64,000 bases of DNA from Albimonas donghaensis (lineage in GTDB: Bacteria; Pseudomonadota; Alphaproteobacteria; Rhodobacterales; Rhodobacteraceae), in NCBI RefSeq assembly GCF_900106695.1, contig NZ_FNMZ01000005.1, positions 62,001-126,000 of the forward strand, written 5' to 3'. Of this stretch, positions 34,904-56,626 are shown piece by piece (position 1 is the stretch's first letter; each line of letters begins with the position of its first letter). The translations under genes and the position numbers were made by a program. The notes below the pieces were generated by a model that was given only the letters and a program-made list of their open reading frames with translations, did no database searches and was not told the origin of the DNA.

Positions 34904-34917
34904 TTTGTCCGGACAAA
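34904..34917. promoter_or_regulatory. Operator 1 of the TTGTCCGGACAA regulon
   Basis: TTTGTCCGGACAAA, a perfect palindrome 30 bp before the deacetylase-like start. A partial copy (TGTCCGGAC, 34883-34891) lies just upstream inside the -35/-10 spacer of a TTGACA promoter (34872). The form fits GntR-family sites (GT-N-AC dyads). Confidence 0.8.
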
Positions 34918-34946
34918 CCTGCGACCGGACCGCGACGGAGGACAAC

Positions 34947-35831
34947 ATGACGGGCGAACTCAGCTGGCCGGACGGCAAGACCCTGGCGCTTTCGGTGGTG
35001 GTGAATGTCGAGGAAGGCTCCGAGATGTCCATCGCCGACGGCGACAAGAAGCCGGAGCCGGTGGACGAGCTGGGCGTGGCGCTCGGCGCCCCCATCCGCA
35101 ACTACGCCAACGAATCCAACTATCAATACGGCATCCGCGCCGGCGGCCCGCGCATCTTCAAGCTGCTGGAGAAGCACGGCGTGACCACCTCCGTCACCGC
35201 CGCGGCGCTCAGCCTCGAACGCGCGCCCCATATCGCCGCGATGATCCGCGACGGCGGGCACGAGCCGACCTCGCACGGCTATCGCTGGATCCACCAGTTC
35301 TCCTACGACGAACCGCGCGAACGCGAGTTCATCGCCAAGGCCGCCGCCTCGATCGAGACCACCACCGGGACCCGCCCCAGGGGCTGGCTGTCGCGCTATC
35401 TCCACACGCCGCGCACCCGGCGGCTGCTGGTGGAGGAGGGCTACGACTATCACATGGACGACCTGTCCGACGACGTGCCGCGCTGGGAGCCGGTGGAGAT
35501 GGAGGACGGCTCGGTCAGGCCGCTCATCTGCATGCCCTACGCCATCGACACCAATGACATGAAGTTCTGGACCTCGCCCTCGCTGACCCCGCAGGCGTGG
35601 CTGGACTACGCGAAGAAGTCCTTCGACTGGCTGCTGGAGGAAAGCAGGACCGAGGGGCCGAAGATGCTGAACGTGGGTCTTCACCTGCGCATCATCGGCC
35701 GGCCCGGGCGGATCTGGGCGCTGGACGAGTTCCTGACCCATGTCACCGCGGCGCAGGACGAGGGGGTCTGGATCGCCCAGCGCGGCCAGATCGCCGAGCG
35801 CTTCCGCCAGTGCTGCCCCTGGCAGGGCTGA
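34947..35831 (+). CDS. PuuE-like polysaccharide deacetylase-fold hydrolase
   Basis: 294 residues from the ATG at 34947, with CGGAGGAC before it. It is a NodB-homology fold of the PuuE (allantoinase) type: VNVEEGSE at 19-26 replaces the metal-binding Asp-Asp of true deacetylases, and H105 and H110 lie in GGHEPTSHGYRW. PuuE proteins cleave C-N bonds in cyclic amides. No other ureide genes are present, so the substrate is probably different. First gene of a + operon led by operator 1. Confidence 0.8.
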   Translation: MTGELSWPDGKTLALSVVVNVEEGSEMSIADGDKKPEPVDELGVALGAPIRNYANESNYQYGIRAGGPRIFKLLEKHGVTTSVTAAALSLERAPHIAAMIRDGGHEPTSHGYRWIHQFSYDEPREREFIAKAAASIETTTGTRPRGWLSRYLHTPRTRRLLVEEGYDYHMDDLSDDVPRWEPVEMEDGSVRPLICMPYAIDTNDMKFWTSPSLTPQAWLDYAKKSFDWLLEESRTEGPKMLNVGLHLRIIGRPGRIWALDEFLTHVTAAQDEGVWIAQRGQIAERFRQCCPWQG

Positions 35832-35884
35832 GGGGGCGCGGCGGAGATGACCCGGGGCGAAGCCACCACCCGCAGGCGGATCCG

Positions 35885-36823
35885 ATGAGCGGCGCGCTGC
35901 GCCGGTTCGCGGCCTCGGCCCCGCTGATGATGCCGGCGGCGCTGGCCGTCGGGCTGGCGGCGCCGGACGCGACGGCCGCCCTGCGCCCCTGGGTGGCGCC
36001 GCTGTCGGTGGCGCTGGTGGTGCTGTCGATGCTGCGGGTGGAGCCCGCGCGCCTGCGCGCCGCCTTCGACCGGCCCGGCCATGTCGCCGCCGTCTGCGCG
36101 GCCATGCTGATCGCGGCGCCGGCGCTGGCCGCCGGCATCGCCTTCGCGCTGGGGGCGCCGTCCTGGCTGGCGGCGGGGCTGGCGCTTTGCGCGGCGGCGC
36201 CGCCGCTGTCGTCCTCGGCCGCCTTCGCCATCATCGTGCGCATCGACCCGGCCTATGTGACCGCGCTGTCGATCCCCGCCACCCTGATCGCGCCGGCGAC
36301 CGTCTGGGCGGTCACCGCGCTGTTGCCGGGGATGGAGCAGGGGGTGGACGTCACCGCCCTGTCGCTGCGGCTCGCCGGGCTGATCTTCGCGGCCTTCGGG
36401 CTGGCGCTGCTGGCGCGCCGGGTGCTGGGGGCGGCGCGGGTGAACCGCGCGGCCGCCCCGCTCGACGCCGCGGCGGTGGCGCTGATGGCGCTGATCGGCT
36501 TCGCGATCACCGAGGACATCCGCGCGCCGATCCTCTCCGACCTCTCGGGCTGGCTGGCGATCCTGGCCGCGACCTGGGCGCTGTCGGCGGGCGCCTGCCT
36601 CGGCGCCGCGCTTTTGTTCCGCGGCGCTGGGCGGGACCGGTCGGCGGCGGCGGGGCTGGCCTGCGCGGTGCGCAACATGGCGCTGATGGTGGCCGCGGTC
36701 ACCGGCGCGGTGGAGGACCGGATCGCCCTGGTGGTGGTCACCGCCCAGATCCCGATCTACGCGGCGCCGCTGCTGATGCGCCCGCTATTCGCCCGGCTTG
36801 GCCGGGAAAGGGGAACCGCATGA
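35885..36823 (+). CDS. BASS/SBF-like membrane transporter
   Basis: 312 residues, almost entirely hydrophobic, with about nine to ten membrane spans; resembles the bile acid:sodium symporter superfamily (CAAAPPLSSSAAFAIIVRID and a second half with RNMALMVAAVTG). It probably moves an organic anion. The ATG lies 53 nt after the deacetylase-like gene, and the stop overlaps dctQ as ATGA. Confidence 0.65.
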   Translation: MSGALRRFAASAPLMMPAALAVGLAAPDATAALRPWVAPLSVALVVLSMLRVEPARLRAAFDRPGHVAAVCAAMLIAAPALAAGIAFALGAPSWLAAGLALCAAAPPLSSSAAFAIIVRIDPAYVTALSIPATLIAPATVWAVTALLPGMEQGVDVTALSLRLAGLIFAAFGLALLARRVLGAARVNRAAAPLDAAAVALMALIGFAITEDIRAPILSDLSGWLAILAATWALSAGACLGAALLFRGAGRDRSAAAGLACAVRNMALMVAAVTGAVEDRIALVVVTAQIPIYAAPLLMRPLFARLGRERGTA

Positions 36824-37386
36824 GCCTGGAAGCGCAATTCGAGCGCGCGGTGCGCGCCGCCTCGCGCTGGTCGGCCCGGCTGGGCGGGCTGGTGGTGCTG
36901 GCCTGCGCGGTGCTGGTCACCGCCGAGGTGATCCTGCGCAACCTGCCCGGCGGGCTGGGCTCCGAGATCCGGCTGCACAGTTTCGAGCTGACCAATTTCG
37001 GCTTCGCCGCCGCCGTCGCCTTCGGCTTCGCCTATGCGCTGACCGAGCGCGCGCATATCCGCATCGACCTGCTCTACGCCCGCCTGCCCCTCGCCGCCCG
37101 CGCGGGGCTGGACGCGCTGGCGCTGCTGGCGCTGGCGGCCATGGCCTCGACCATGGCCTGGCATGGCTGGGGAGTGGCGATGCGCTCCGCCGCCATGGGG
37201 GCGATGCCCAATTCCACCCTGCGCCTGCCGCTGGTCATCCCCCAGTCGGTCTGGGCCGCGGGGCTCACCTGGTTCGCCGGCATCGCCGTGCTGCTCGCCG
37301 CGCAGGCGCTGCTGCGGCTGGCGCGCGGCCGTTTCGCCGAAGTCCACGCCGCCGCCGGCGTCATGCGCGAGGAGGACACCGCATGA
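36820..37386 (+). CDS. TRAP transporter small permease (DctQ type), system 1
   Basis: 188 residues with four hydrophobic helices and the family segment ERAHIRIDLLYARLP. It is the small membrane subunit that binds the large DctM subunit. It overlaps both neighbours by ATGA. System 1 has gene order Q-M-P. Confidence 0.88.
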   Translation: MSLEAQFERAVRAASRWSARLGGLVVLACAVLVTAEVILRNLPGGLGSEIRLHSFELTNFGFAAAVAFGFAYALTERAHIRIDLLYARLPLAARAGLDALALLALAAMASTMAWHGWGVAMRSAAMGAMPNSTLRLPLVIPQSVWAAGLTWFAGIAVLLAAQALLRLARGRFAEVHAAAGVMREEDTA

Positions 37387-38672
37387 TCGGCGTCGCCGCC
37401 CTGATCCTGGCCGCGCTGATCGCGCTGGCCCTGCCCGTGGCCGCCGCGCTCGGCATCCTCGCGGTATCGCTGTCGGAGATCTATTCCTTCTTCCCCCTCC
37501 TGCCCGCGCTGGGCGAGATCCTGTGGTCCGCCTCCACCGAGTTCGTGCTGGTCGCCGCCCCCATGTTCATCCTGATGGGCGAGATCCTGCTGCGCGCCGG
37601 CATCGCGCGCGACATGTATGAGGGCGTGGACGCCTGGGTGAACCGGGTGCCGGGCGGGCTGATGCACACCAACATCGCCTCCTGCACCCTGTTCGCGGCG
37701 ACCTCGGGGTCGTCGGTGGCCACGGCGGCGACCATCGGGACCGTGGCGATCCCCAACATGACGCGGCTGGGCTACAACCCCTCGCTCTATCTCGGGTCGA
37801 TCGCCGCCGGGGGGACGCTGGGCATCCTCATTCCGCCCTCGGTCAACATGATCCTCTACGGCGTGCTGGCGGAAGTGTCGGTGACCCGGCTCTACCTCGC
37901 CGCCCTGATCCCGGGGCTGATGCTGGCGCTGCTGTTCTCCGGCGTCATCGCCGCCATCTGCATCTTCCGCCCGGGGCTGGACGGCGGGCGGGGGAACGCC
38001 GACTGGGCGGCGCGCTGGCGCGGGCTGCGGGCGCTGGCGGCGCCGCTGGGGCTGTTCTGCGTGGTCGTCGGCTCGATCTACGCCGGTTTCGCGACCCCGA
38101 CCGAGGCCGCGGCGCTGGGCGTCGTCGCCTCGCTGGCGCTGGCCGCCGCGCGGGGGAAGCTGTCGCGCGCCTCGCTCTGGGCGGCGCTGGAGGGCGCGAT
38201 GCGCACCACCGCCATGGTCATGCTGATCGTGGTCGCGGCCTTCTTCCTCAACTTCGTGATGGTCTCCACCGGGCTGACCACGGCCATCACCGGCGCCATG
38301 ACCGCGCTCGAGGTCGCGCCGGTCACGGTCATTCTGATCATCGTCTGCGCCTATCTGGTGCTGGGCTGCTTCATGGAGACCCTGTCCCTGATGGTCGCCA
38401 CCACCCCGATCATCGCCCCCGTCGTCGCCGCGCTGGGCTTCGACCTGGTGTGGTTCGGGGTGCTGTTCATGATCCTCATCGAGGCGGCGCTGATCACGCC
38501 CCCGATCGGGGTCAACCTGTTCGTGGTGCAGGGGGTGCGCGGCGCCTCCTCCGGCCCGATCCGGCAGGTGATGCTCGGCGCCCTGCCCTTCCTCGCCATG
38601 ATGCTCGCCATGATCGGGCTGCTGATCCTCGCCCCCGACCTGGCCCTGTGGCTGCCAGGGATCGCCATGTGA
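37383..38672 (+). CDS. TRAP transporter large permease (DctM type), system 1
   Basis: 429 residues with about 11-12 spans. The conserved stretches PMFILMGEILLRAG, TLFAATSGSSVATAATIG, LGILIPPSVNMILYGVLAEVS and ITPPIGVNLFVVQGV identify the sodium-driven transport subunit. It works with the DctQ and DctP proteins encoded on either side. Confidence 0.94.
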   Translation: MIGVAALILAALIALALPVAAALGILAVSLSEIYSFFPLLPALGEILWSASTEFVLVAAPMFILMGEILLRAGIARDMYEGVDAWVNRVPGGLMHTNIASCTLFAATSGSSVATAATIGTVAIPNMTRLGYNPSLYLGSIAAGGTLGILIPPSVNMILYGVLAEVSVTRLYLAALIPGLMLALLFSGVIAAICIFRPGLDGGRGNADWAARWRGLRALAAPLGLFCVVVGSIYAGFATPTEAAALGVVASLALAAARGKLSRASLWAALEGAMRTTAMVMLIVVAAFFLNFVMVSTGLTTAITGAMTALEVAPVTVILIIVCAYLVLGCFMETLSLMVATTPIIAPVVAALGFDLVWFGVLFMILIEAALITPPIGVNLFVVQGVRGASSGPIRQVMLGALPFLAMMLAMIGLLILAPDLALWLPGIAM

Positions 38673-38740
38673 CCCGGCCCGGCGCCCGGCAGGCGATCGC
38701 AACGACCAACGTCACGACCAACAGAAGGAGGGACCACCCC

Positions 38741-39769
38741 ATGCGCATCAAGACCATCCTCGCCGGCGCCACGGCGCTGCTGGCCGCGGCCGGCGCCGCG
38801 CAGGCGCTGACCGTCAACGTCGTCGGCAATCTCGGCATCACCACCCAGTCCAAGACGCTCGAAGCGCCGTTCTGGAACGAGAAGCTGCCCGAGATCTCCG
38901 GCGGCGAAATCACCGCCAACTTCAAGCCGTGGAACGAGATGGGCCTGAAGGGGCCGGAGATCTACCGGCTGCTCGGCCAGGGCGTGATGAACGTGGCCAC
39001 CGGCCAGCTCGGCCATTCGGCGGGCGACGTGCCGATCAACGACGCCACCGACCTCGCCGGGCTCAACCCCACGATCGAGGAGTTCAAGGCGGTGACCGAG
39101 GCGTTCCGCCCGACGCTCTCGAAGTATTACGCCGAGGAGATGGGGCTGGAGATCCTGTCCCTGCATTCCTACCAGGCCCAGATCCTCTATTGCCGCGATG
39201 AGTTCTCCGGCCTGGCGGACCTGAAGGGCAGGAAGGTGCGGTCCTCCGGCGCCTCCCAGGCCGACTTCATCGAGTATTTCGGCGGCCAGGCCGTGGCCAT
39301 GGCCTTCGGCGAGGTCCAGCAGGGCCTCCAGCAGGGCGTCATCGACTGCGCCATCACCGGCACGCTGGGCGGCTATTCGGCCAAGTGGCACGAGGGCGCG
39401 GGCTATCTCTACACCCTGCCGATCAACTGGGGCTCGGGCGCGACCATGGCCAACAAGGCCTGGTGGGACGGTCTGCCCGAGGCGCAACAGACCCTGATGC
39501 GGACCGAGATCTCCAAGCTCGAAGCCGAGATGTGGGCGCTGAACGCCAAGGAGAACGAAATCGGCATCGCCTGCAATACCGCCGGCCCCTGCCCCGAGGG
39601 CGAGCCCGCCGGCATGGTCCGCGTCGACCCGACCCCCGAAGACGTGGAGCTGCGCCGCAAGGCCATGCTCGAAGCGGTTCTGCCCGGCTTCAAGGCCCGC
39701 TGCGGCGAGGCCTGCACCGGGATGTGGAACGCCGAGATCGGCCCGGTCGTCGGCCTGACCATCGACTGA
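38741..39769 (+). CDS. TRAP transporter substrate-binding protein (DctP type), system 1
   Basis: 342 residues with a signal peptide cleaved after AQA (about residue 21). The middle contains the DctP-family block DLKGRKVRSSGASQADFIEYFGGQAVAMAFGEV, with the arginine that pairs with a carboxylate ligand. Four cysteines in the C-terminal part (IACNTAGPCPEG, RCGEACTG) could form disulfides. A carboxylated ligand is likely. AGAAGGAGGG precedes the ATG. A 15-bp hairpin follows the stop. Confidence 0.92.
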   Translation: MRIKTILAGATALLAAAGAAQALTVNVVGNLGITTQSKTLEAPFWNEKLPEISGGEITANFKPWNEMGLKGPEIYRLLGQGVMNVATGQLGHSAGDVPINDATDLAGLNPTIEEFKAVTEAFRPTLSKYYAEEMGLEILSLHSYQAQILYCRDEFSGLADLKGRKVRSSGASQADFIEYFGGQAVAMAFGEVQQGLQQGVIDCAITGTLGGYSAKWHEGAGYLYTLPINWGSGATMANKAWWDGLPEAQQTLMRTEISKLEAEMWALNAKENEIGIACNTAGPCPEGEPAGMVRVDPTPEDVELRRKAMLEAVLPGFKARCGEACTGMWNAEIGPVVGLTID

Positions 39770-39777
39770 CCCGTCCT

Positions 39778-39812
39778 GCGGCGGCGCCGGCGCGCGACGC
39801 CGGCGCCGCCGC
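39778..39812 (+). terminator. 15-bp perfect hairpin after the system 1 binding protein
   Basis: A 15-bp stem beginning GCGGCGGCGCCGGCG with loop CGCGA, 9 nt after the stop and without a T run. It resembles the hairpins after the other binding-protein genes in this window. Confidence 0.6.
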
Positions 39813-39893
39813 CCGCCTTCCGCCCGGCGCGCCCCCTGTCGGGCCGGGCGGCCGGCCGTCCGGAGCGTGTTGGCTCGCCGGGCGGCTCTCCTT

Positions 39894-39934
39894 CCCGCGG
39901 CGGTCTTTGCCGGGCCGCTGCGGGAGGGCTTTTT
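39894..39934 (+). terminator. Terminator-like hairpin with T run before the GAF gene
   Basis: Stem CCCGCGGCGG with CCGCTGCGGG (one G-U pair), 11-nt loop, then AGGGC and TTTTT. It suggests that the GAF-MmgE pair may be a partly separate transcription unit. Confidence 0.5.
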
Positions 39935-40005
39935 CCCCGCCCGAGCCCGCCCTCGCGTTTCGTCGTCGCCCGACGGCCTCCCGCCTGTCTCTGGATCCGC
40001 GCCCG

Positions 40006-40611
40006 ATGCCTCGCCTGACCGACCCCGAATTCGACGCCCTGCTGCTGGACGCCGCCGCCGGCGCCGCCGCCGCCGAGGATCTGGAGCGCGCCTTCGCCGC
40101 GCTGACCGCCGCCGCCCGGGCCGGGCTCGGCGATCCCGACGCCGCCGCGGCCCCCGGCGGGCTGAAAGCGGGCGAGCGCGACTACCGCATCGGCGGCGTG
40201 TTCCTCGTCACCCCCGACCGGCGCTACAACATGCTGGTGGCCTCCGCCGGCTTCCCGCCCGAGCAGCGCCGCCTGTGCATCCCAATCGACTGGAACCATC
40301 CCGGCGTGGTGGTCGCCGACCGGCGCCCGGTGCTGGTGGCCAATACCGACGCGGACGCGGGCTTCCGCCAGTTCCTCAAGACCTCGCGCATGGGGTCGTC
40401 GATCTATCACCCGTTCTTCGCGGGCGGCCGGCTGGTCGGCCAGATCGTCGCCGCCTCGCAGGCGCGGCTGACCTATGACGCGACCGATCTCGCCCGGCTG
40501 GGCCGCCTCGCCTGGTCCGCCGCGCTGAGCTGGGCCTCGCGGAGCGGCGAGGCCTGGCTCGCCGCCGACTATCCCGCCCCCGACCTCTGGCGCGCGGAGG
40601 AGCACGCATGA
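40006..40611 (+). CDS. GAF-domain protein
   Basis: 201 residues from the ATG at 40006, which has only a weak ribosome site. One GAF domain fills most of the chain (YRIGGVFLVTPDRRYNMLV to VGQIVAASQARLTYDATD), with no output domain and no cysteine. It may be a small-molecule sensor or a structural partner. The stop overlaps the MmgE/PrpD start as ATGA, so the two proteins are probably made together. Confidence 0.75.
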   Translation: MPRLTDPEFDALLLDAAAGAAAAEDLERAFAALTAAARAGLGDPDAAAAPGGLKAGERDYRIGGVFLVTPDRRYNMLVASAGFPPEQRRLCIPIDWNHPGVVVADRRPVLVANTDADAGFRQFLKTSRMGSSIYHPFFAGGRLVGQIVAASQARLTYDATDLARLGRLAWSAALSWASRSGEAWLAADYPAPDLWRAEEHA

Positions 40612-42041
40612 CCCACACGACCGACACCCCCCCCGACGCCGCCGCCGACGCCCCGATCGTCGACGTCATCGTCGACCACGTTCTCGGCGCCCGCTACGAG
40701 GACCTGTCGGACCACGACCTGCACCGGGCCCGCACCTACCTGCTGGACACGTTGGGCGTGGCCATCGCGGGGTCGCGGGGCGCGGCCATCGACGCGCTGA
40801 TCGACACCGCCCGCGGCTGGGGCGACGGCGACGAGGCCACCGTCTGGGTGACCGGCGAACGCCTGCCCGCCACCCAGGCCGCGGTGGTCAACGCCTACCA
40901 GATCCACTGCCTGGAATACGACTGCGTGCACGAAGCCGCGGTGGTGCATCCCATGGCGACCGTGCTGTCGGCGCTGATGGCCTTTTGCGAGCGCCGCGCG
41001 GGGCGGGGACAGCCGGTCTCGGGCCGGGACTTCCTGCTGGCCATGTGCATCGGGATCGACGTGGCCACCCTGATGGGCGTCGCCGCCCACGGCCCGATCC
41101 GCTGGTTCCGCCCCGCCACCGCCGGCGGTTTCGGCGCCGTGGCCGCCATGGCCCGGCTGGAAGGACTGGACAAGACCGGAGTGAAGGACGCCTTCGGCGC
41201 CATGTATGGCCAGACCTCCGGAACCCTGCAGCCGCATGTCGAGGGCTCGCCGGTGCTGGGCCTCCAGATCGGTTTCAACGCCCGCGCCGCGATCTGCGCC
41301 ATCGACCTCGCCCGCGCTGGCTTCCGCGGCCCGCATGACGTGTTCGACGGGCCCTACGGCTACTTCCGGCTGCTGGAGGACGGGGCCTTCGATCTCGCCC
41401 CGATCCGGGAGACGTTGGGGCGCGAATGGCAGGTCTCACGCCTGTCGCACAAGCCCTTCCCCTCCGGCCGGCTCACCCACGGCGTCGTGGATGCGCTGAT
41501 GCGCCTGACCGCCGCCCATGGCTTCGCGCCGGAAGACGTGGCCTCGGTCAAGGGGACCGCCCCGCCGCTGGTCACCCGCCTGGTCGGGCGCCCGGACATC
41601 CCCAACCCCGAGCCCAACTACGCCAAGCTCTGCCTGCGTTTCGTGGCCGGCGCCTGGCTGGCGCGCGGCAAGGTCGACGTGCCCGAGTTCTCCGACCCCG
41701 AAGTGCTGGCCGATCCGCGGATCCACGACTTCGCCGCGCGGGTGGAGGTGGAGACCGACGACAACCCCTCGCAGAGCGCGCTGGCCCCGCAATGGTGGCA
41801 GGTGACGCTGACCGACGGGACGATCCACGAGATCGACCTCCCCCATGTCTACGGCCACCCGATGGCGGCGCTGACCGACGACGAGAACCTCGCCAAGTTC
41901 CGACGCTGCGTCGGCTGGGGCCGCGCCCCGATGGCCGGAGACGCGGCCGACGCCCTGATCGCCGCCGTCGCCGCCGCCGAGACGCTGGACGACGCCGGCG
42001 CGCTCGCCCGCATGACGGTGATCCCCGGCGCACGGGACTGA
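40608..42041 (+). CDS. MmgE/PrpD family protein 1
   Basis: 477 residues. The all-helical N-terminal domain has LLDTLGVAIAGSRGAA, then AYQIHCLEYDCVHEAAVVHP with the family histidine region and PATAGGFGAVAAMARLEG. The smaller C-terminal lid contains LSHKPFPSGRLTHGV. Members include 2-methylcitrate dehydratase and cis-aconitate decarboxylase, so a hydratase, decarboxylase or isomerase acting on a polycarboxylate is plausible. Co-translated with the GAF protein. Confidence 0.88.
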   Translation: MTHTTDTPPDAAADAPIVDVIVDHVLGARYEDLSDHDLHRARTYLLDTLGVAIAGSRGAAIDALIDTARGWGDGDEATVWVTGERLPATQAAVVNAYQIHCLEYDCVHEAAVVHPMATVLSALMAFCERRAGRGQPVSGRDFLLAMCIGIDVATLMGVAAHGPIRWFRPATAGGFGAVAAMARLEGLDKTGVKDAFGAMYGQTSGTLQPHVEGSPVLGLQIGFNARAAICAIDLARAGFRGPHDVFDGPYGYFRLLEDGAFDLAPIRETLGREWQVSRLSHKPFPSGRLTHGVVDALMRLTAAHGFAPEDVASVKGTAPPLVTRLVGRPDIPNPEPNYAKLCLRFVAGAWLARGKVDVPEFSDPEVLADPRIHDFAARVEVETDDNPSQSALAPQWWQVTLTDGTIHEIDLPHVYGHPMAALTDDENLAKFRRCVGWGRAPMAGDAADALIAAVAAAETLDDAGALARMTVIPGARD

Positions 42042-42057: not shown

Positions 42058-42069
42058 TTGTCCGGACAA
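42058..42069. promoter_or_regulatory. Operator 2 of the TTGTCCGGACAA regulon
   Basis: An exact copy of the palindrome, 4 bp upstream of a TTGACA box. A degenerate half (GTCCAGACAA, 42102-42111) lies at the expected transcription start, so a repressor could bridge the promoter. Confidence 0.8.
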
Positions 42070-48173: not shown

Positions 48174-49500
48174 GGTTCAGCGCCAGGTCCAGCGCCTCCG
48201 CCCAGGCGGTCAGCCGGGCCTCCGACCAGGGCGCGCCGAGCAGCTGCACCGAGGCCGGCAGGGTCTCGCCCGCCAGCGGAACCGGGAGCGTCACCGCCGG
48301 CGCCCCGGCGAAATTGGCCAGCGCGGTGAAATCGGCCTGGTTGGCGGGCGCGGGCGTCCCGTGCGGAAAGGCCCGTTGCGGGGCGGTGGGCAGGATCAGC
48401 GCATCGCATTCCGCCAGCCCCCGCGCGCAGGCCGCCGCCGCCGCGCGGATGCGGGCGTAGGCGTCGACCATGCGCAGCGCGCCGGCATCCCGCCCATAGG
48501 CCAGCAGCGCCGCCAGGTGGTCCGAGATCGCGCCCTGCGTCTCCATCAGCGACGCCATCTCCACCGCGCCCTCGGCCTCGGAGATCAGCAGACCCCCGCG
48601 GCGCGCGCGCCCCGGGTCCCAGCCCTCCAGGTCCAGCGCCACCACCCGCGCGCCGAGCCGCTTCGCGACCTCCACCGCGCGGGCGAGCCCCTCGCGGACA
48701 GCGGGTTCGCAGTCCACCGTCTCGATCTGCTTCGGCAGGCCCAGCCGCACCCCGCGCAGGGAGATGTCGGGCCGCGCCGACCAGCCGCCGCGGGCCGGGC
48801 GGGCGTCCGGGTCCTCCGGATCGACGCCGGCCAGCGCCTCCAGCGCCGGCCACAGATCCGCGGCGCGGCGGGTCAGCGGCCCCACGGTGTCGAGCGTGGG
48901 CGCGAGATAGGCGAGCCCGGCGCGCCCGATCAGCCCCGCGGTGGGCTTGGCGCCGCAGATCCCGCAATAGGCGGCCGGAATGCGGACCGAGCCCATGGTG
49001 TCGGTGCCCAGCGCCAGGTCCGCCAGCCCCGCCGCCACCGCCGCCCCCGACCCGCCGGACGACCCGCCCGGCGTCAGGGCGTTCCCCTGCGCATCGGGGC
49101 CCAGCGGGTTCATGCAGCGCCCGAAGGCGTCGTTGTCGGTGGTCGCGCCCAGCGCCCCCTCATGCAGGTTCACCCCGCCGAGGATCACCGCCCCCGCCGC
49201 CCGCAGCCGCGCGACCGCGGTCGCATCCGCCGCCGCCACCCGGTCCCGCCAGCCGGCGATGCCCGCCGTCCAGGGCCGGCCCGCCATGGCGAGGTTGTCC
49301 TTCACCGCGACCAGCGCGCCGTCCAGCGGCCCCCGCGCCCGGCCGAGACCGGCGCGCGCGTCGGCCTCCGCCGCCGCCGCGACCGCGCCCGCACTGTCGA
49401 CGGAAAGGAAGATCGCCTCTCCGCCCGCCATGCTCGCCTCGATGCGGGCCAGCGTCTCGCGGGTCCGGGTCTCGACCGCTCCCGGCGCGGGGGCGCCCAT
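48169..49500 (-). CDS. Amidase-signature family amidase
   Basis: 443 residues from the ATG at 49500, which overlaps the ligase stop as TGATG; a GTG one codon earlier is possible. The Ser-cisSer-Lys triad is intact: Lys in VAVKDN near 67, and the two serines in TPGGSSGGSG and MGSVRIPA. It hydrolyses an amide to acid and ammonia in the cytoplasm. Last gene of the minus operon MmgE2-ligase-amidase. Its stop codon lies in a REP-like element, so the C-terminus may have been set by repeat insertion. Confidence 0.9.
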   Translation of the reverse strand: MGAPAPGAVETRTRETLARIEASMAGGEAIFLSVDSAGAVAAAAEADARAGLGRARGPLDGALVAVKDNLAMAGRPWTAGIAGWRDRVAAADATAVARLRAAGAVILGGVNLHEGALGATTDNDAFGRCMNPLGPDAQGNALTPGGSSGGSGAAVAAGLADLALGTDTMGSVRIPAAYCGICGAKPTAGLIGRAGLAYLAPTLDTVGPLTRRAADLWPALEALAGVDPEDPDARPARGGWSARPDISLRGVRLGLPKQIETVDCEPAVREGLARAVEVAKRLGARVVALDLEGWDPGRARRGGLLISEAEGAVEMASLMETQGAISDHLAALLAYGRDAGALRMVDAYARIRAAAAACARGLAECDALILPTAPQRAFPHGTPAPANQADFTALANFAGAPAVTLPVPLAGETLPASVQLLGAPWSEARLTAWAEALDLALNP

Positions 49501-50891
49501 CACGACGCCTTTCGCGCGTCGATCAGGCGGAGCGGCTTCTGCCGGCTCTCGATCTGGGTCAGGGGCGCGGTCTCGCCGGGCGCGGCCAGCTCGACCCCGA
49601 TCTGCACGCCGAGGCGGGTCTTCAGGGCGGCCTCCATGGCCGCGCCCAGGCCCTCGGGGCGGTCCGAGACCTCGGCGATCACCACCATCTCGTCGCGGCC
49701 CTCGCGCTTTTCGACCCGGCAGATGTATTCGGCGGCCATCTGCGGGAACTGCGCCGACAGCAGCGCGCCGATGCCCTGCGGATAGATGTTGATGCCGCGC
49801 AGCTTCACCATGTTGTCGGACCGGCCCATGAAGCCGCGGATCCGCCCGAAGGGCAGGTCGAGCGGGTTGGCGCCGGGCAGCGCCTCGGTCACGTCATGGG
49901 TGTTGAAGCGGATGATCGGGTAAAGGTCGTCCTTGAACAGGCAGGTGCATACCATGTCCCCGATCCCCCCCGGCGCGACCGGGGTCCCGTCCTCCACATC
50001 GAGGATTTCGAGGAACTGGGCGTCCTCCATCACATGCATCCCCTCCCGGTCCGGCCCCTGCCCGGCGATGGTCCCGGTGTCGCCGACGCCGTACCAGTCA
50101 TAGACCGCGGCGCCGCCCCAGGCCTGGGACATGGACTCGGCGCTGTCGGCCCCGATATGGCCGGAAATCATGCGGATGCGAATATCCTCGCCGGGGATCA
50201 GCCCTTCCTCGCGCGCCACCTCGGCGAGCCGCTTCACGTAGTCCCCGAAGCCGACGATCGTCGTGGCCCCGAAATCCTTCATCAGGCGCACCTGCTGGGC
50301 GGAGCGCATGTCGGCCCCGGTGCCCGCGGTCAGCATCGGCGCCCCGATCCAGTGGTTGATCGCCTCGCGCACATAGTGCCCGCCATTGACCATGCCGAAG
50401 CCGTAGACGCAGTGCACCACGTCGTCCGGCGTCATGCCCTGAAGCCGGTAGGTGCGGGCCAGCAGCATGTTCTGCACCTCGCGGCTTCTGGCGCCGTAGA
50501 TCAGCGGCTGCGGCTTGCCGGTGGTGCCCGAGGTGGTCTGCATGATCATCGGCGGGCGCGGGGCGGCGCCGTGGGAGTCGCGCCCGTGAAAGTCGCCGAT
50601 GGGCGGGCAGGCCTCGACCGAGGCCATCAGGTCCGACTTGGAATAGGTCGGCAGCTTCGTGATGTCGTCGAGGCTTCGCACATCGCCCGGCTCCACCCCC
50701 GCCGCGCCCCAGTGGCGGGCGTAGAAGGGCACCTTCCAGGCGAAATCCATCACCGCGAGGAAACGGGCGTTCTGCTTCGCGCGCAACTCGTCGCGGCTCA
50801 TGCCGGCATAGGCGCCCAGCAGGTCCACGGGATAGTCGCGGGCCAGGGCGGCGGGGTCGAGCGCGTCGAAATAGCTGGGATAGGCGGTCAC
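49500..50891 (-). CDS. Phenylacetate-CoA-ligase-like AMP-forming acyl-CoA ligase
   Basis: 463 residues, GTG start at 50891 overlapping the MmgE stop as GTGA and preceded by GAGGA. It is a PaaK-type adenylating enzyme: TTSGTTGKPQPLIYG (ATP-binding loop), YDWYGVGDTG, FNTHDV, RGFMGRSDNMVKLRGINIYP. It makes acyl-AMP and then acyl-CoA. PaaK relatives take phenylacetate and other aromatic or heteroaromatic acids; no ring-opening genes are near, so a non-aromatic acid is also possible. Confidence 0.87.
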   Translation of the reverse strand: MTAYPSYFDALDPAALARDYPVDLLGAYAGMSRDELRAKQNARFLAVMDFAWKVPFYARHWGAAGVEPGDVRSLDDITKLPTYSKSDLMASVEACPPIGDFHGRDSHGAAPRPPMIMQTTSGTTGKPQPLIYGARSREVQNMLLARTYRLQGMTPDDVVHCVYGFGMVNGGHYVREAINHWIGAPMLTAGTGADMRSAQQVRLMKDFGATTIVGFGDYVKRLAEVAREEGLIPGEDIRIRMISGHIGADSAESMSQAWGGAAVYDWYGVGDTGTIAGQGPDREGMHVMEDAQFLEILDVEDGTPVAPGGIGDMVCTCLFKDDLYPIIRFNTHDVTEALPGANPLDLPFGRIRGFMGRSDNMVKLRGINIYPQGIGALLSAQFPQMAAEYICRVEKREGRDEMVVIAEVSDRPEGLGAAMEAALKTRLGVQIGVELAAPGETAPLTQIESRQKPLRLIDARKAS

Positions 50892-52306
50892 GTGTGCATG
50901 TCCTCGGGCGTGTATGCGGGCGCTTCGGCGAGCGCCGAGGCGAAGGCGGCGAGGGGCGCGGGGCCCGGGTCGTCGGGAAGGGCGAGGGCGGCGGCGATCA
51001 GGCGCTCGGCCTGGTCGGGAGAGCGGCCGCCCGCGGCGCAAAGCGCCCGGGCCTTGGCGATGAGGCGGGCCTCGTCCACCGGGTTCTCGGGGTCGCCGAG
51101 CGCGTCGGGGGCCTCCGCCCGCAGGGTCTCGCCGGTGGCGAGGTCGATCTCCACCGCGGCGCCGTAGCGCCGGGGGAAGGCGGCGGTGAAGGCGGGGGTC
51201 GCGGCGACGGCGGTCAGGCCGCGCAGGCGGGTGAGGTCGGGGCGGGCGATGGCGTCGGGCTCGAACGCCGCCAGCGGCGGCGGGCCGTCGGCGAGGCAGG
51301 CGGCGACGGCGTGCTGCAGGCTGAACTTGGCCTCATGCGTGGTGGTCGGCGCCGGGCGGTCGCAGAAGGTGACGGCCTCGGCATAGGTCTCGATGCGGAT
51401 GGCGCGGATAGCGGCGGGGGCGGCGCCCCGGGCGCGCAGGTCGAGGGCGGCGTCGATGGCCGGATGCGCATGGCGGCAGGCGGGCCAGGGCTTGAAGCTG
51501 ACGTCCCAGATCATCCACGGCCCGTCCAGGCGGGCGATGACCGCGGCGGGGTCCGGGTCGGGGCAGAAGGCGTCGTAGAAGCCCTGGGCGCCCTCCAGCA
51601 TCGCCTCCGGCCCGGTGAAGCCCAGCGCGGCAAGCTCCGCCGCCTGAAGTCCGGACATGGCGGCGCGGGCGGTATGGAGTTGCTTGGTCATCACCGGCTC
51701 ATGCCGGCAACGCCAGGGCCCCGCGGCCTGCGATCCGGCATTGCCGAGCGCCCAGACCATGGCGTCCTCCGACAGGCCCAGCAGCGCGCCGGCGGCGGCC
51801 GCCGCCCCGAACGGCCCGCAGGTCGAGGTGTTGTGCCAGCGCTGGTAATGCCCCGGCCCGACCGAGGCGCCGACGCGGATCATCGCCTCATAGCCGATCA
51901 CCAGCGCGTCGAGGAACGCCGCCGCGCCCGCCCCCGTCGCCTGCGCGGCCGCCAACGCCGCCGGGATCGCCACCGGCCCCGGATGCAGGATCGAGGTGCG
52001 GTGAACGTCGTCCATTTCCAGCACGTTGCCGAGCCCGCCATTGACCAGCGCCGCCGCCGCCGGGGACAGGCCCGCGGCCCCCATTCCGACGCCGACGCAA
52101 GCCCCGGCGCCGGTGGCCGCGGCCCCCTGCGCCAGCCGCGCGCCCGCAGGCGAAACCGCGCCCGCCGCGGCGCAGCCGGCCCAGTCCAGCGCGTGCAGCG
52201 CGGCGCGGGCCCGATCCTCCGCCCCCGGACGCACGGCGAGACGGCCGGCCAGGCGGCGCAGCAGGGTCGGCGCCATGTCGGGATTCGGGGCGTGAGTCGC
52301 GGGCAT
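50888..52306 (-). CDS. MmgE/PrpD family protein 2
   Basis: 472 residues. The helical domain includes NGGLGNVLEMDDVHRTSILHPG with the family Asp/His cluster, then RWHNTSTCGPFGAAAAAG and FKPWPACRHAHPAIDAALDL. It differs clearly from MmgE/PrpD protein 1, so the two are not recent duplicates. It heads the minus operon with the CoA ligase and amidase, 32 bp from operator 3. A dehydratase, decarboxylase or isomerase role is expected. Confidence 0.88.
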   Translation of the reverse strand: MPATHAPNPDMAPTLLRRLAGRLAVRPGAEDRARAALHALDWAGCAAAGAVSPAGARLAQGAAATGAGACVGVGMGAAGLSPAAAALVNGGLGNVLEMDDVHRTSILHPGPVAIPAALAAAQATGAGAAAFLDALVIGYEAMIRVGASVGPGHYQRWHNTSTCGPFGAAAAAGALLGLSEDAMVWALGNAGSQAAGPWRCRHEPVMTKQLHTARAAMSGLQAAELAALGFTGPEAMLEGAQGFYDAFCPDPDPAAVIARLDGPWMIWDVSFKPWPACRHAHPAIDAALDLRARGAAPAAIRAIRIETYAEAVTFCDRPAPTTTHEAKFSLQHAVAACLADGPPPLAAFEPDAIARPDLTRLRGLTAVAATPAFTAAFPRRYGAAVEIDLATGETLRAEAPDALGDPENPVDEARLIAKARALCAAGGRSPDQAERLIAAALALPDDPGPAPLAAFASALAEAPAYTPEDMHT

Positions 52307-52337: not shown

Positions 52338-52349
52338 TTGTCCGGACAT
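52338..52349. promoter_or_regulatory. Operator 3 of the TTGTCCGGACAA regulon
   Basis: TTGTCCGGACAT, one mismatch from the perfect palindrome, lying directly downstream of the -10 box of the MmgE2 promoter and about 90-100 bp upstream of the regulator gene. This is a typical repressor position, allowing autocontrol. Confidence 0.75.
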
Positions 52350-52377
52350 ATTCTAACGGCGGTTTCGCGCGGCGCAA
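52350..52377 (-). promoter_or_regulatory. Promoter of the MmgE2-ligase-amidase operon
   Basis: On the minus strand: TTGCGC, 16-bp spacer and TAGAAT (5 of 6 to consensus), followed immediately by operator 3. Confidence 0.55.
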
Positions 52378-52424: not shown

Positions 52425-52442
52425 ATGGCCCGCGCCGCATGA
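52425..52442 (+). CDS. Possible 5-codon leader ORF of the GntR gene
   Basis: ATG-GCC-CGC-GCC-GCA-TGA, with GGAAGGA 7 nt ahead. Its stop overlaps the regulator ATG (ATGA). The regulator start itself has no separate ribosome site, so its translation may depend on termination of this minigene. It could be coincidence. Confidence 0.4.
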   Translation: MARAA

Positions 52443-53209
52443 CCGCCCCATCCTCCGCGTCCTCCCCGCCCTCGCCCGCAGCCGGCCCCCGATACCGGCG
52501 CATGGCCAGGACGTTGCAGGCCCGCATCGCCGAAGGTCTGTGGAAAATCGGAGAGGCGCTGCCCACCGAGCAGGAGCTCTGCGCCGAATTCGGCGTCTCC
52601 CGCCACACGACGCGCGAGGCGCTGCGGGTGCTGGCGGAGGCCGGGCTGGTGCGCCGCCGGCAAGGCTCGGGCACCGAGGTCATCGCCGACACGCCCCCCG
52701 CCCTCTACCGCCACCAGATGCGCTCCCTCAGCGAGCTGCTGGACTACGCCGCCGACACGCGGCTGGAGCTGGTCCCCGCCGAAGGCGATCCGCTGGAACT
52801 GGCGCCCGAGGGCCTGACGCTCGCCCCCGGCCCCGGGCCGTGGCTGGCGGTGGAGGGCGTGCGCCGCACCCTCGCCGGCGGGGCGATCAACTTCACCCGG
52901 ATCTGGTTGCCCGCGGCCTACGCCTCCATCCTGCCGGAGTTCGAGGGCGGCGCCCGCTCGGTCTACGACCTGATCGAGCGGCGCTTCCGCGTGCGGGTGG
53001 CGGAGGTGGCGCAGGAGATGACGGGGGCGACGCTCTGCCCCCGCTCCGCCAGGGCGCTGGGGCGGGACGCGGCGGACCCCGCGATCCTGCTGCTGCGCAG
53101 CTACCTGGACGCCGAGGCCCGGCCGGTCCTGGTTTCGGCGAGCTGGCACCCCGCCGACACGTTCTCTTATTCCATGCGGCTCCAACGCGACGATACGGCG
53201 GGGATGTGA
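52439..53209 (+). CDS. GntR-family regulator (HutC/UTRA type)
   Basis: 256 residues from the ATG at 52439. The winged helix reads PTEQELCAEFGVSRHTTREALRVLAEAGLVRRRQGSGT near residues 40-80, and a UTRA ligand-binding domain follows (VEGVRRTLAGGAINFTRIWLPA, RVAEVAQEMTGATL). GntR proteins bind GT-N-AC dyads, which TTGTCCGGACAA is. It is the only GntR gene in the window and lies amid four such sites, so it is the likely regulator of the 34.9-59.8 kb island. Confidence 0.9.
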   Translation: MTAPSSASSPPSPAAGPRYRRMARTLQARIAEGLWKIGEALPTEQELCAEFGVSRHTTREALRVLAEAGLVRRRQGSGTEVIADTPPALYRHQMRSLSELLDYAADTRLELVPAEGDPLELAPEGLTLAPGPGPWLAVEGVRRTLAGGAINFTRIWLPAAYASILPEFEGGARSVYDLIERRFRVRVAEVAQEMTGATLCPRSARALGRDAADPAILLLRSYLDAEARPVLVSASWHPADTFSYSMRLQRDDTAGM

Positions 53210-53338: not shown

Positions 53339-54499
53339 TTAACCCGGAACCCGCGCGAGGCAGGCCGCCACGACCTCCTCCGGCAGGCCGGCGTCGCGCA
53401 GGGTGACCTCGGTATGCTCGCCCAGCCCCGGCAGGGTCGGATCCAGCCGCCCGGGCTCGTCCCGGTAGCGGATCGGCAGACCGATATGCAGGGCGCCGGC
53501 GGCGTCGCGCACCTTCATCTCCCGCGCCGCGACCTGGGGGCTGTCGAAGGCCTCTTTCAGGTCCAGCACCGGGGCGAAGCAGACGTCGCGGCCGGCGAAC
53601 CACGTCTCCCACTCGTCGCGGGTTCTGGTGGCGAAGATCTCGCGCAGGAAGGCCTTCACCGGCGCCTGCCCTTCGCCTGGCGGGCCGTTGGCGATCTCGA
53701 TCAGGTCGGGACGCTCCAGCGCGGTCAGGAGGGTGGCGACGAACTTGTGCTCCACGCCCCCGAGCACGACATGGCGGTCGTCAGCGGTCCGGTAGATGGA
53801 GAAGAAGGCGTAGCCGCCGAAGGAACGCTCGGACTTCACCCGCGGCGCGCGATCCTCCGCGAAAACCGGGCCGACCACGTTGGGCAGCCAGGCCATGCAG
53901 GCGTCCTGCATCGACATGTCGATGACATCGCCGCGCCCGGTCTCGTGGCGCCGATAGAGCGCCATCATGATCGCCCCGAAGGTCATCAGCGACGACGCCA
54001 CGTCGGCTACCGGCATATGCGGATTGGTCGGCTCGCCATCCGCCCCGAGGTTCAGCGAGACCAGCCCCGACAGCGCCTCGATGGCCAGGTCATGCCCCGG
54101 CCGCGCCACTTCCGGCCCGGTCTGCCCGAAGGCGGCGATGGAGGCGTAGACGATCCGCGGATTGCGCGCCGTCACCGCGTCCGGGCCGACGCCCAGCCGG
54201 TCGACGACACCGGGGCGGAAGGCCTCGATGAACACGTCCGCGGTCTCGGCCAGGCGCAGCAGCGCCTCGCGCCCGGCTTCGGTCTTGAGGTCCAGCACCA
54301 CGGATTTCTTGCCGCGATGGGTGTTGCGGAACCAGACCGAGACGTCGGTGTGGTCGCGGTAGCCGACCCCGCGCACCGGCTCGCCCGAGGGCGGCTCGAC
54401 CTTGATCACCTCGGCCCCGTGATCGGCCATCATCATGGTCAGATGCGGGCCGGGCAGGAACATCGACAGGTCGAGCACGCGCAGGCCTTCCAGCTTCAT
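53339..54499 (-). CDS. Family III CoA-transferase (CaiB/BaiF), copy A
   Basis: 386 residues from the ATG at 54499, overlapping the previous stop as TGATG. MKLEGLRVLDLSMFLPGPHLTMMMADHGAEVIKVE is the family N-terminus (residues 1-35), and the catalytic aspartate is in MPVADVASSLM. It should move CoA from a donor such as succinyl-CoA to an organic acid. Last of three genes with the CitE-like lyase. Differs from copy B throughout, suggesting different acids or a heteromer. Confidence 0.9.
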   Translation of the reverse strand: MKLEGLRVLDLSMFLPGPHLTMMMADHGAEVIKVEPPSGEPVRGVGYRDHTDVSVWFRNTHRGKKSVVLDLKTEAGREALLRLAETADVFIEAFRPGVVDRLGVGPDAVTARNPRIVYASIAAFGQTGPEVARPGHDLAIEALSGLVSLNLGADGEPTNPHMPVADVASSLMTFGAIMMALYRRHETGRGDVIDMSMQDACMAWLPNVVGPVFAEDRAPRVKSERSFGGYAFFSIYRTADDRHVVLGGVEHKFVATLLTALERPDLIEIANGPPGEGQAPVKAFLREIFATRTRDEWETWFAGRDVCFAPVLDLKEAFDSPQVAAREMKVRDAAGALHIGLPIRYRDEPGRLDPTLPGLGEHTEVTLRDAGLPEEVVAACLARVPG

Positions 54500-55692
54500 C
54501 AGACCGCCCCCGCCGCGCGCAGGGCGGCGATTTCGTCGGCGCCGAAGCCGGCCTCGGACAGCACCGCGTCGGTGTCCGCGCCCAGCGCCGGGGCGGGGCG
54601 GGAGGGGGCCTCGGCCTCGCCCACGCGGATGGGGGAGGCGACCATGCCGAAATCCGGGCGCATCGGGTGATCCACCGCCCGCACCCCGCCGCGGTCCCGG
54701 AAGAAGGGATTCTCCAGCGCCTGGTCGAGGGTCAGGACCGGGGCGGCGGGGACGCGGCCGCCGAATTCGGCCATCCACTCGGCGGTGGTCTTCCGGCGCG
54801 CCAGCGGGTCGAAGATCTCCATCAGCGCGTCGCGGTTGTCGAAGCGGGCGCGCGGGGTGGCGAAGCGGGGGTCGGTCGGCAGGTCGGGCGCGCCCAGCGC
54901 CACGGCCAGCGCCTCCCAGAATTTCGGAAGGACGCACATCACGAAGATCCAGCCATCCTTCGTGGGCAGCGTCTCGCAGGGCACGACCGAGGGATGGCCC
55001 GAACGCGGCCGACGCCCGGTGACGTCGCCCTCGTTCAGATACCACGTCGCGGGGTAGGAGAGCTGGTGCATGGCCACATCGTAGAGCGACACGTCCATGT
55101 CCCGGCCCTTGCCGGTGCGCGCCGCGCCCAGCAGGGCCGAAACCAGGCCCAGCGCCGCGACCACGCCGGTCATGTAGTCCACGATGGACAGGCCCATGCG
55201 GGCGGGGGGGCCTTCGGGATCGCCGGTCAGGTGGAACCACCCGGCCTCGGCCTGCATCAGGTAGTCGTAGCCCGGCCACGCGGCCCGCGGCCCGGTGCGC
55301 CCATAGGCCGAGAGATGGGCGCAGACGATCTCCGGCTTCACCGGGCCCAGCGCGTCATAGGTCAGGCCCAGCTTGTCGGGGATGTCGCCGCGCAGGTTGT
55401 TGAGCACCGCGTCGAAGCCCGGCAGCAGGCGGCGCAGGGCCGCCTGCCCCTCGGGTTTCTTCAGGTCGAGGGTCAGGGAGCGCTTGTTGCGGTTGAAGGT
55501 CTGGAAGAAGTGGCTGTCGCCCTCGCCCAGAAAATGCGGCCCCGACGCGCGCGAGCTGTCGCCCGAGCCCGGCGCCTCGATCTTCACCACCTCCGCGCCC
55601 ATGTCGGCGAGGTAGAGCGAGCCGAAGGGCCCCGCGCCGTATTGCTCGACAGAGAGGATGCGGACGCCTTCGAGCGGAAGCGGCTGGGTCAT
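54499..55692 (-). CDS. Family III CoA-transferase (CaiB/BaiF), copy B
   Basis: 397 residues from the ATG at 55692, overlapping the lyase stop by ATGA. It starts LPLEGVRILSVEQYGAGPF, has NRNKRSLTLDLKKPEG and the aspartate in GLSIVDYMTGVVAALG. In itaconate/citramalate-type pathways a family III transferase activates the acid whose CoA ester is later cut by a CitE-like lyase; the tight coupling here fits that logic, but the acid is not identified. Confidence 0.9.
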   Translation of the reverse strand: MTQPLPLEGVRILSVEQYGAGPFGSLYLADMGAEVVKIEAPGSGDSSRASGPHFLGEGDSHFFQTFNRNKRSLTLDLKKPEGQAALRRLLPGFDAVLNNLRGDIPDKLGLTYDALGPVKPEIVCAHLSAYGRTGPRAAWPGYDYLMQAEAGWFHLTGDPEGPPARMGLSIVDYMTGVVAALGLVSALLGAARTGKGRDMDVSLYDVAMHQLSYPATWYLNEGDVTGRRPRSGHPSVVPCETLPTKDGWIFVMCVLPKFWEALAVALGAPDLPTDPRFATPRARFDNRDALMEIFDPLARRKTTAEWMAEFGGRVPAAPVLTLDQALENPFFRDRGGVRAVDHPMRPDFGMVASPIRVGEAEAPSRPAPALGADTDAVLSEAGFGADEIAALRAAGAV

Positions 55693-56561
55693 TCGCCCGC
55701 CTCCGCCTGATTCGGGGCCACGCCCGCGGCCTCGGCGGCCTCCATCCGGGCGCGCATGGCGCGGATGACGGGGGCCTCGATCAGCTTGCCGTCGATCACC
55801 ACCAGCCCGGTCTCGGAGGCTTCGTAGGCCGCGATGACCTTGCGGGCCTGGGCCACCTGCTCGGGGGTCGGCGTGAACACGCCGTTGACCGCGCCGACAT
55901 TGGTCGGGTGGATGGCGGCCTTGCCGGAATAGCCCATGGCGCGGGCGGCCTCGGCCTCGGCCGCCACGGCGTCGAGATCGCGGAAGTTCAGCGACGGCAC
56001 GTCCATCGCCGGCACGCCCGCGCGGCGGGCGGCGTGGACGACGCGGGCGCGGGCGTAGGCCAGCGGGCCGGGGGCGTTGTCGCATCCCAGCTCCGCCGAC
56101 AGGTCCACCGCGCCGAACATGGCGAGCTTCACGCGGGACGAGGCCGCGACGATCTCCTGCACGTTCTCCAGCCCGTCGACGCTCTCGATCAGCACCACGA
56201 GCCCGGCGTCGGAACCGGCCTCGGTCAGGGCGGCGTCGACGATGCGCACTTCCGCGGCCTCGTCGACCTTGGGCATGACCACCAGCCCCGCGGCGGGGGC
56301 GGCGTCGGCCACGGCGGCGAGATCGCGCAGCCCGGCCACGGTCTTGAGCCCGTTGATGCGCAGGGCGCGGGTGCAGGCGTCGCCCGCCGCGGCGCCGGCC
56401 AGCCAGGCCACGCCGTCGGGCCGGGCCGCGTCCTTGCCCGAGGGCGGCACCGCGTCCTCCAGGTCCACGCAGACGATATCGGCGCCCGAGCCCATGGCCT
56501 TCTCGAAAATGGCGGGACGGGCCCCGGGGACGAAGAGCAGCGAACGGGTGGCGCCTGGCAT
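55689..56561 (-). CDS. CitE-like HpcH/HpaI aldolase-family CoA lyase
   Basis: 290 residues with a TIM-barrel fold: RSLLFVPGARPAIFEKA, DIVCVDLEDAVPP, LRINGL (substrate arginine), VVLIESVDG and the metal Asp in AVDLSAELG, then GYSGKAAIHPTNV. These match malyl-, methylmalyl- and citramalyl-CoA lyases, which cleave a beta-hydroxyacyl-CoA to an acyl-CoA and glyoxylate or pyruvate. It heads the operon with two CoA-transferases, with operator 4 53 bp upstream. Confidence 0.88.
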   Translation of the reverse strand: MPGATRSLLFVPGARPAIFEKAMGSGADIVCVDLEDAVPPSGKDAARPDGVAWLAGAAAGDACTRALRINGLKTVAGLRDLAAVADAAPAAGLVVMPKVDEAAEVRIVDAALTEAGSDAGLVVLIESVDGLENVQEIVAASSRVKLAMFGAVDLSAELGCDNAPGPLAYARARVVHAARRAGVPAMDVPSLNFRDLDAVAAEAEAARAMGYSGKAAIHPTNVGAVNGVFTPTPEQVAQARKVIAAYEASETGLVVIDGKLIEAPVIRAMRARMEAAEAAGVAPNQAEAGE

Positions 56562-56614
56562 GGGGTCGGGTCTCCTCCGGTATCGGCGCGTCGGGGGACA
56601 GGGCCGCGCGCCAC

Positions 56615-56626
56615 TTGTCCGGACAA
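56615..56626. promoter_or_regulatory. Operator 4 of the TTGTCCGGACAA regulon
   Basis: An exact palindrome between the divergent lyase and TAXI genes. On the minus strand a TTGACA box (56647-56652) is 20 bp upstream of it, so the site covers the -10 region of the lyase promoter. It may also act on the TAXI gene, 132 bp away. Confidence 0.8.

Follow-up and report, generated by a model that had tools for sequence, protein, structure and literature searches.

A predicted HutC-type GntR repressor and its palindromic operator at four operon heads in Albimonas donghaensis

We analyzed a 64,000-nucleotide stretch of the Albimonas donghaensis genome (contig NZ_FNMZ01000005.1, positions 62,001 to 126,000; hereafter the window), in which copies of the 12-bp palindrome TTGTCCGGACAA stand ahead of four operons. 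The gene at 52439–53209 (+ strand) very probably encodes a HutC-type GntR repressor that binds palindromes of this type at the four operons, A to D, and at its own promoter. A dimer of this regulator would bind over or beside the promoters of operons A (34947–42041), B (42154–47981), C (52306–48169), and D (56561–53339) and block RNA polymerase. As the divergent operator of operon C is shared with the regulator gene, the dimer would also bind its own promoter and thus be autoregulatory. Release would follow the binding of a ligand, probably the imported acid or a pathway intermediate, to the UTRA domain. The approximately 20 genes would then form one catabolic unit with uptake systems, a PuuE-like hydrolase, an amidase, a coenzyme A (CoA) ligase, CoA-transferases, an acyl-CoA dehydrogenase, hydratases, and a citramalyl-CoA-lyase-like enzyme. 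The sites, their rarity, their promoter geometry, and the recurrent linkage of this regulator clade to the operator and the target genes were established by computation. From these we infer binding, repression, induction, effector, and substrate; the extents of the operons were deduced from gene order only. A preliminary description of the window had already placed the four operon heads under one local regulator, and this interpretation proved largely right.

The regulator consists of an N-terminal GntR winged helix (PF00392, 73.5 bits for a cut-off of 27, 1.1e-20) and a C-terminal UTRA domain (PF07702, 47.8 bits for a cut-off of 23.8, 1.7e-12). The genome contains 26 GntR-domain and six UTRA matches; in the window, 52439–53209 is the only gene with either, and it lies next to one of the palindromes as originally noted. 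No named HutC-type NCBIfam equivalog (PhnF, HutC, TreR, Rv0792c) scored above its cut-off, the best being PhnF with 76.9 bits for 156.8 required. Among solved structures, the best profile matches are 2ra5, YvoA/NagR (4u0v and 2wv0), and DasR (9i0v and 4zs8).

Three copies of TTGTCCGGACAA in the window are exact: operator 1 at 34905–34916, which extends to a 14-bp palindrome at 34904–34917, operator 2a at 42058–42069, and operator 4 at 56615–56626. Operator 3 (52338–52349) is the one-change copy TTGTCCGGACAT. All four had been listed in the preliminary description, and each was confirmed. A weaker fifth copy with two changes, TAGTCCAGACAA, constitutes operator 2b (42100–42111), and an imperfect palindrome, CTGTCCGGACCT, precedes operator 1 at 34882–34893, a position counted along the printed sequence. 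The four named sites all contain GTCCGGAC, with GT and AC 4 nt apart, and the same core heads the list of words found de novo in the 79 related loci described below. The sites are close to the first genes of the operons, as previously stated, with gaps of 30 bp to the PuuE-like gene of operon A (start 34947), 84 bp to the MaoC gene of operon B, 31 bp to the MmgE2 gene of operon C, and 53 bp to the CitE gene of operon D. The last two sites are divergent, operator 3 lying 89 bp from the GntR gene and operator 4 lying 131 bp from a TAXI gene. An in-frame ATG at 34896 would put operator 1 inside the coding sequence, and the start at 34947 was preferred.

The palindrome is rare. Frequent occurrence of the 12-mer elsewhere in the genome had been named as an argument against a regulon; the scan of the 5.01-Mb genome (30 contigs) returned four exact copies, only one of which lies outside the window, and none of the reversed control word. 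Under a first-order model, 0.001 exact copies are expected by chance per 64 kb and 0.077 per 5.01 Mb. With up to one change allowed, the whole genome holds eight copies and two of the control. The core TGTCYRGACA occurs eight times in the genome, four of these in the window (control 0; binomial P 1.8e-6), and the exact word is present in four of 60 relatives. Shuffling the window alone with up to two mismatches was too weak to decide, its five matches being reached by two of 100 shuffles, and whole-genome and comparative counts were used instead.

The operators are closely associated with promoter elements, and the TTGACA and TAGAAT elements first reported near the sites were all located. A sequence and spacing scan places operator 1 after TTGACA-N17-AATGTT (−35 box at 34872–34877 on the + strand, −10 candidate at 34895–34900). 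Operators 2a and 2b flank TTGACA-N18-GATAGT on both sides, 2a immediately upstream of the −35 box (42074–42079) and 2b overlapping the −10 box (42098–42103). Operator 3, between the divergent MmgE2 and GntR genes, abuts the minus-strand −10 element TAGAAT (52350–52355). Operator 4 coincides in part with the −10 region of the minus-strand promoter that faces CitE and has its −35 box TTGACA at 56647–56652. For this reason, operator 4 is most plausibly attributed to operon D, not to the TAXI-TRAP genes on its other side.

These genes, a TAXI-type TRAP system (56758–57729 and 58005–59837) followed by a zinc alcohol dehydrogenase gene (59950–61095; all on the + strand; TIGR02122, PF06808, and PF00107), are possible additional members, which would bring the regulon to three TRAP systems and about 23 genes. 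We give this extension slightly less than even odds. The genes share the divergent intergenic region with operon D, and in genome G080 a one-change operator with −10 geometry is found 73 bp ahead of a TAXI-type gene (L115:17864). However, the single copy at 56615 fits the opposite promoter, and in the promoter spacing scan no plus-strand promoter comparable to the CitE-side one overlaps operator 4. For the single regulon of about 20 genes initially proposed, the four operons are supported by the rarity of the sites and by comparative pairing, and control of the third TRAP system is plausible.

We counted promoter spacings, considering exact TTGACA only, at 55 distinct sites from the window and from the loci fetched from other genomes. 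At 15 of these sites, for an expectation of 0.12, TTGACA begins 24 to 33 bases upstream of the operator. At this −35 spacing the operator covers the −10/+1 region, a layout typical of repressor sites. An activator or dual regulator, for which operators just upstream of the −35 box, as at 42058, would aid polymerase binding, could account for the five of 55 sites with TTGACA just downstream. Threefold more sites lie over −10/+1, and the 15 promoters concerned have exact consensus −35 boxes, which as a rule need no activator; we consider activation improbable.

The regulator and the operator word recur together in other genomes. At E ≤1e-15, 75 of the 390 genomes examined from the order encode a relative of the GntR protein; about half of the listed places were fetched, giving 47 homologue rows, two of which share one locus. 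A site with at most one change is present in 21 of the 47 rows (17/26 at 95 bits or more, 4/21 below), compared with one of 47 for the reversed control. In the tree, the 19 rows labelled as carrying the motif all show the helix SR[HFY]T, followed in 16 by [VTI]RE. We also tallied co-occurrence by genome, by hand and with an 85-bit cut-off chosen after the scores were seen. Of the 22 genomes whose relative scores 85 bits or higher, five (G000, G077, G080, G181, and G198) have at least three TTGTCYRGACAA sites, as does none of the 368 others (Fisher P 3.6e-7); for at least two sites, the figures are 9/22 and 18/368.

A separate collection was obtained by a profile search of species genomes led by the recognition-helix pattern. 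Relatives of the clade occur mainly in Alphaproteobacteria, with some in Beta- and Gammaproteobacteria. The best 79 loci of 582 matches were kept, one of which, L136, is the same stretch as L049 of the same genome. These loci contain 47 exact sites in 25 loci and 115 sites within one change in 53 loci, and the reversed words are absent at both levels. Without prior knowledge of the motif, TTGTCCGGACAA emerges as the most over-represented palindromic 12-mer of these loci (40 copies for 0.05 expected; reversed words 0), and TGTCCGGACA as the top 10-mer (73 for 1.29). This comparative evidence links the 12-mer to this GntR clade. It would provide a reliable operator for an uncharacterised regulator clade, from which regulons could be predicted genome by genome. 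Four Azospirillum loci (L174, L175, L185, and L190), each with two GntR genes, carry the words TTGTACGGACAA and TTGTACGTACAA, in which the CG centre is kept and the adjacent base changed.

The genes next to the sites are also conserved. Against a base rate of 53/79 loci with at least one site, five families were found only in site-bearing loci: MmgE2 (16/16), CoA ligase (16/16), the PuuE-like protein (13/13), MmgE1 (12/12), and a CoA-transferase of the acetyl-CoA-hydrolase type (13/13). The amidase follows with 18/19, and hypergeometric P values for these six range from 0.0007 to 0.005. Lower fractions were counted for acyl-CoA dehydrogenase (26/32), CaiB2 (25/31), MaoC (19/24), and CitE (18/22). 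Genome G080 has seven TTGTCYRGACAA sites on one contig, with sites ahead of the MaoC, CitE, bile-acid:Na-symporter (BASS)-like, and DctP2 genes and one-change copies ahead of MmgE2. Genome G101 has no exact site, and one-change copies precede its PuuE-like, MmgE1, and DctQ1 genes. On plasmid pTM2 of Tistrella mobilis, TTGTCCGGACAT lies between a CoA-transferase-GntR pair and divergently oriented MmgE/PrpD, AMP-binding, and amidase genes, whereas in the window the GntR gene faces MmgE2 directly, without that CoA-transferase. In Kaistia terrae DSM 21341, one locus contains the regulator together with 11 of the linked families. A Methylobacterium currus plasmid (L225:11956–19435) carries a clade relative with two operator-like sites, adjoining genes for 3-hydroxy-3-methylglutaryl-CoA lyase, an isocitrate-lyase/phosphoenolpyruvate-mutase-family protein, LeuCD-like proteins, and an ATP-binding cassette transporter. 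In G198, an arylmalonate-decarboxylase-family protein and an isochorismatase-family hydrolase are encoded near operator copies (L050:16053–16799 and 19207–19848); these neighbours may hint at maleate or maleamate chemistry.

Outside the window, the only exact copy (C12:704788; L045:6789–6800) lies 30 bp ahead of a flavin mononucleotide (FMN)-oxidoreductase gene and adjoins the gene of another UTRA regulator, one with an SRVT-type helix. Four others are less perfect. The one-change copy TAGTCCGGACAA (C9:419879; L046:9880–9891) is 25 bp ahead of the ATG of a gene for a fused, oxoprolinase-type hydantoinase A/B (9917–13561), a possible distant member of the regulon. Another, at C16:642041, is 151 bp ahead of the called start of a DctP gene; that at C16:1399875 follows a T-rich stretch and has no gene start within 400 bp in the gene call; and a core-only match at C11:6947 is inside a called open reading frame (ORF). 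All of these copies were kept as possible members of the regulon. The genome also encodes a second member of the clade (C12:687088; L044:9062–9868), which shares 36% identity with the window protein and has a PuuE-like gene (33%) nearby. There, the variant word ATGTCCAGACAT (L044:3859–3870) precedes a flavin-adenine-dinucleotide-monooxygenase-type gene. In keeping with our assignment of the sites to the window protein, two genomes of the same genus that have the counterpart of this C12 paralogue alone (71 and 77% identity with the paralogue, 36% with the window protein) lack the exact site.

With six UTRA proteins in the genome and one exact copy between another UTRA gene and the FMN oxidoreductase, the sites might belong to a paralogous regulator, either that of C12:687088 or the neighbour of C12:704788, and not to the window GntR protein. 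Comparative data make this highly improbable. Five of the seven rows with the SRVT helix of the C12:704788 neighbour have no site, and the other two (L107 and L125) have a single one-change copy each, inside a coding ORF. In the C12:687 sub-clade, variant words occur in L044 and L056 (TGGTCTGGACAA) and none in L054. At the loci of the window GntR protein's relatives, by contrast, the motif is found next to the same target genes. Chance palindromes or a repeat element without regulatory role, compatible with the weak window-only shuffle and with the single copies present in many genomes, can practically be dismissed given three exact copies in 64 kb, their recurrence beside orthologous genes in other genera, and the complete lack of reversed words in the 79 loci.

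Several observations nevertheless weigh against a single regulator acting on these sites as we propose. A site with at most one change is missing from 26 of the 47 homologue rows, eight of which have the SR[HFY]T helix, and from 26 of the 79 related loci; moreover, these 79 loci, the best of 582, were themselves chosen through the recognition-helix pattern. At least one TTGTCYRGACAA site is found in 92 of the 368 genomes without a close relative (13/22 with one); single copies therefore mean little, unlike clusters, which are not background. The clade member at C12:687088 and the UTRA regulator beside C12:704788 could share or compete for sites. Finally, the substrate class considered below is deduced from family resemblances that fall short of curated cut-offs.

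Operon A (+ strand) begins with the PuuE-allantoinase-like hydrolase of the polysaccharide-deacetylase family (34947–35831; PF01522; TIGR03212 217.5 bits, below the cut-off of 424.6). It is followed by a membrane protein (35885–36823) that resembles a BASS by eye only, has no Pfam family at E 0.001, and has a 55% identical counterpart in L050. Next come TRAP genes DctQ, DctM, and DctP (36820–39769, starting at 36820, 37383, and 38741; PF06808 for DctM, NF037995 for DctP), a GAF-domain protein (40006–40611; PF13185/PF01590), and MmgE/PrpD family protein 1 (40608–42041; PF03972, PF19305). Operon B (+) encodes a RipB/Ich-like MaoC-type hydratase (42154–42672; NF038241, PF19315, PF01575), an acyl-CoA dehydrogenase (42672–43826; PF00441, PF02770, PF02771) that is 78–80% identical to proteins in L049, L051, and L053, a second TRAP system (43953–47187, with DctP from 43953, DctQ from 45380, and DctM from 45895; PF03480, PF06808), and an enoyl-CoA hydratase/isomerase (47184–47981; PF00378). 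Between its DctP and DctQ genes, a gap of about 450 bases (44931–45379) contains a short tandem repeat, one frame of which reads FRFRFRFR; this gap may hold an internal promoter or reflect a start that was missed. Operon C (−) consists of MmgE/PrpD family protein 2 (50888–52306; PF03972, PF19305), a PaaK-like CoA ligase (49500–50909; TIGR02155 152.5 bits, below the cut-off of 646.3; 4r1l), and the amidase (48169–49503; PF01425). Operon D (−) consists of a RipC/Ccl-like HpcH/HpaI lyase, CitE (55689–56561; NF038242, PF03328), and CaiB-type CoA-transferases 2 (54499–55692) and 1 (53339–54499; both PF02515).

The Ich- and Ccl-like enzymes, together with the CoA-transferases and the acyl-CoA dehydrogenase, suggest by their family assignments a methyl-branched C5 dicarboxylate as substrate. 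Pathway logic would have such a compound end in pyruvate and acetyl-CoA. However, the scores do not reach those of the itaconate equivalogs (RipB 239.1 of 340 bits, RipC 242.7 of 375), so this is a resemblance only. As a conjecture, the PuuE-like hydrolase, the amidase, and the C9 hydantoinase A/B would suit a cyclic amide or imide. The nearest solved structures of the PuuE-like protein (1z7a, 3s6o, and 3cl6) are allantoinase, unnamed, or deacetylase entries, with no direct support for an imidase, and among the titles retrieved from the open-licence PubMed Central (PMC) literature none concerns such a pathway. The proposed regulon joins some 20 loosely annotated genes into one testable pathway.

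Among known systems, the GntR/HutC repressors NagR/YvoA and DasR share with the window regulator the GntR helix-turn-helix (HTH) and UTRA domains and a GT-N4-AC palindrome. DasR and NagR each reportedly keep several operons under one repressor. The preliminary description had judged the breadth of the regulon unusual for a local GntR protein; this view is not upheld, since about 20 genes are unremarkable for a multi-operator HutC-type regulator of the DasR or NagR kind. The targets of NagR/YvoA and DasR are amino sugar genes, whereas those of the window belong to CoA-dependent acid catabolism, and the window operators are centred on CG or CA/TG and not on the published TA.

A survey of the family (Suvorova et al. 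2015, PMC4494728) gives the HutC operator consensus as NyGTMTAKACNy, with GT and AC 4 nt apart, mentions exceptions to the TA centre, and ties HTH position 39 to the central operator bases. Compared with this consensus, the window operator keeps the GT/AC spacing and has C and G at the M and K positions. By contrast, TA is found at the centre of none of the 86 symmetric sites in 79 loci, 74 of which have CG. Residue 56 of the regulator, equivalent to HTH position 39 by our own offset, appears to go with the operator centre. In 54 loci, Phe accompanies CA/TG in 11 and CG in two, and His or Tyr accompanies CA/TG in six and CG in 32, with three ties (P 1.5e-5); only five independent pairs exist, three for the association, none against, and two tied. 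This count omits seven loci with two GntR genes, the duplicate L136, an Asn-type locus, loci without a countable site, and loci whose GntR protein scores below 80 bits or lacks the SR-x-T helix. The association is suggestive. The clade offers a natural set in which to ask which recognition-helix residue reads the operator centre.

Regarding its enzymes, the window resembles the itaconate operon ict-ich-ccl of Pseudomonas aeruginosa with its IctPQM TRAP transporter (PMC12599236): by family, both have a CoA-transferase, an Ich-like hydratase, a Ccl-like lyase, and TRAP uptake. The window differs from that operon by the addition of an acyl-CoA dehydrogenase, an MmgE/PrpD pair, an amidase, a CoA ligase, and a PuuE-like hydrolase, and by its GntR/UTRA regulator.

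A broader scenario, which we consider rather unlikely as a whole, goes further. A widespread unnamed HutC-type clade would act on CG-centred operators, residue 56 (His/Tyr or Phe) selecting CG or CA/TG, and would control several undescribed pathways for branched or substituted dicarboxylates. The window version would open a methyl-branched C5 imide or amide by means of the PuuE-like protein, the amidase, and perhaps the hydantoinase-type enzyme, and cleave the acid via CoA thioesters to pyruvate and acetyl-CoA. In the titles, abstract openings, and passages of the open-licence PMC literature covered, no description of this operator or regulon was found, and no paper containing the operator words has a bacterial regulator in its title. 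Multi-operon HutC regulons are of an ordinary kind; what is new here is this clade, its CG-centred operator, and its regulon.

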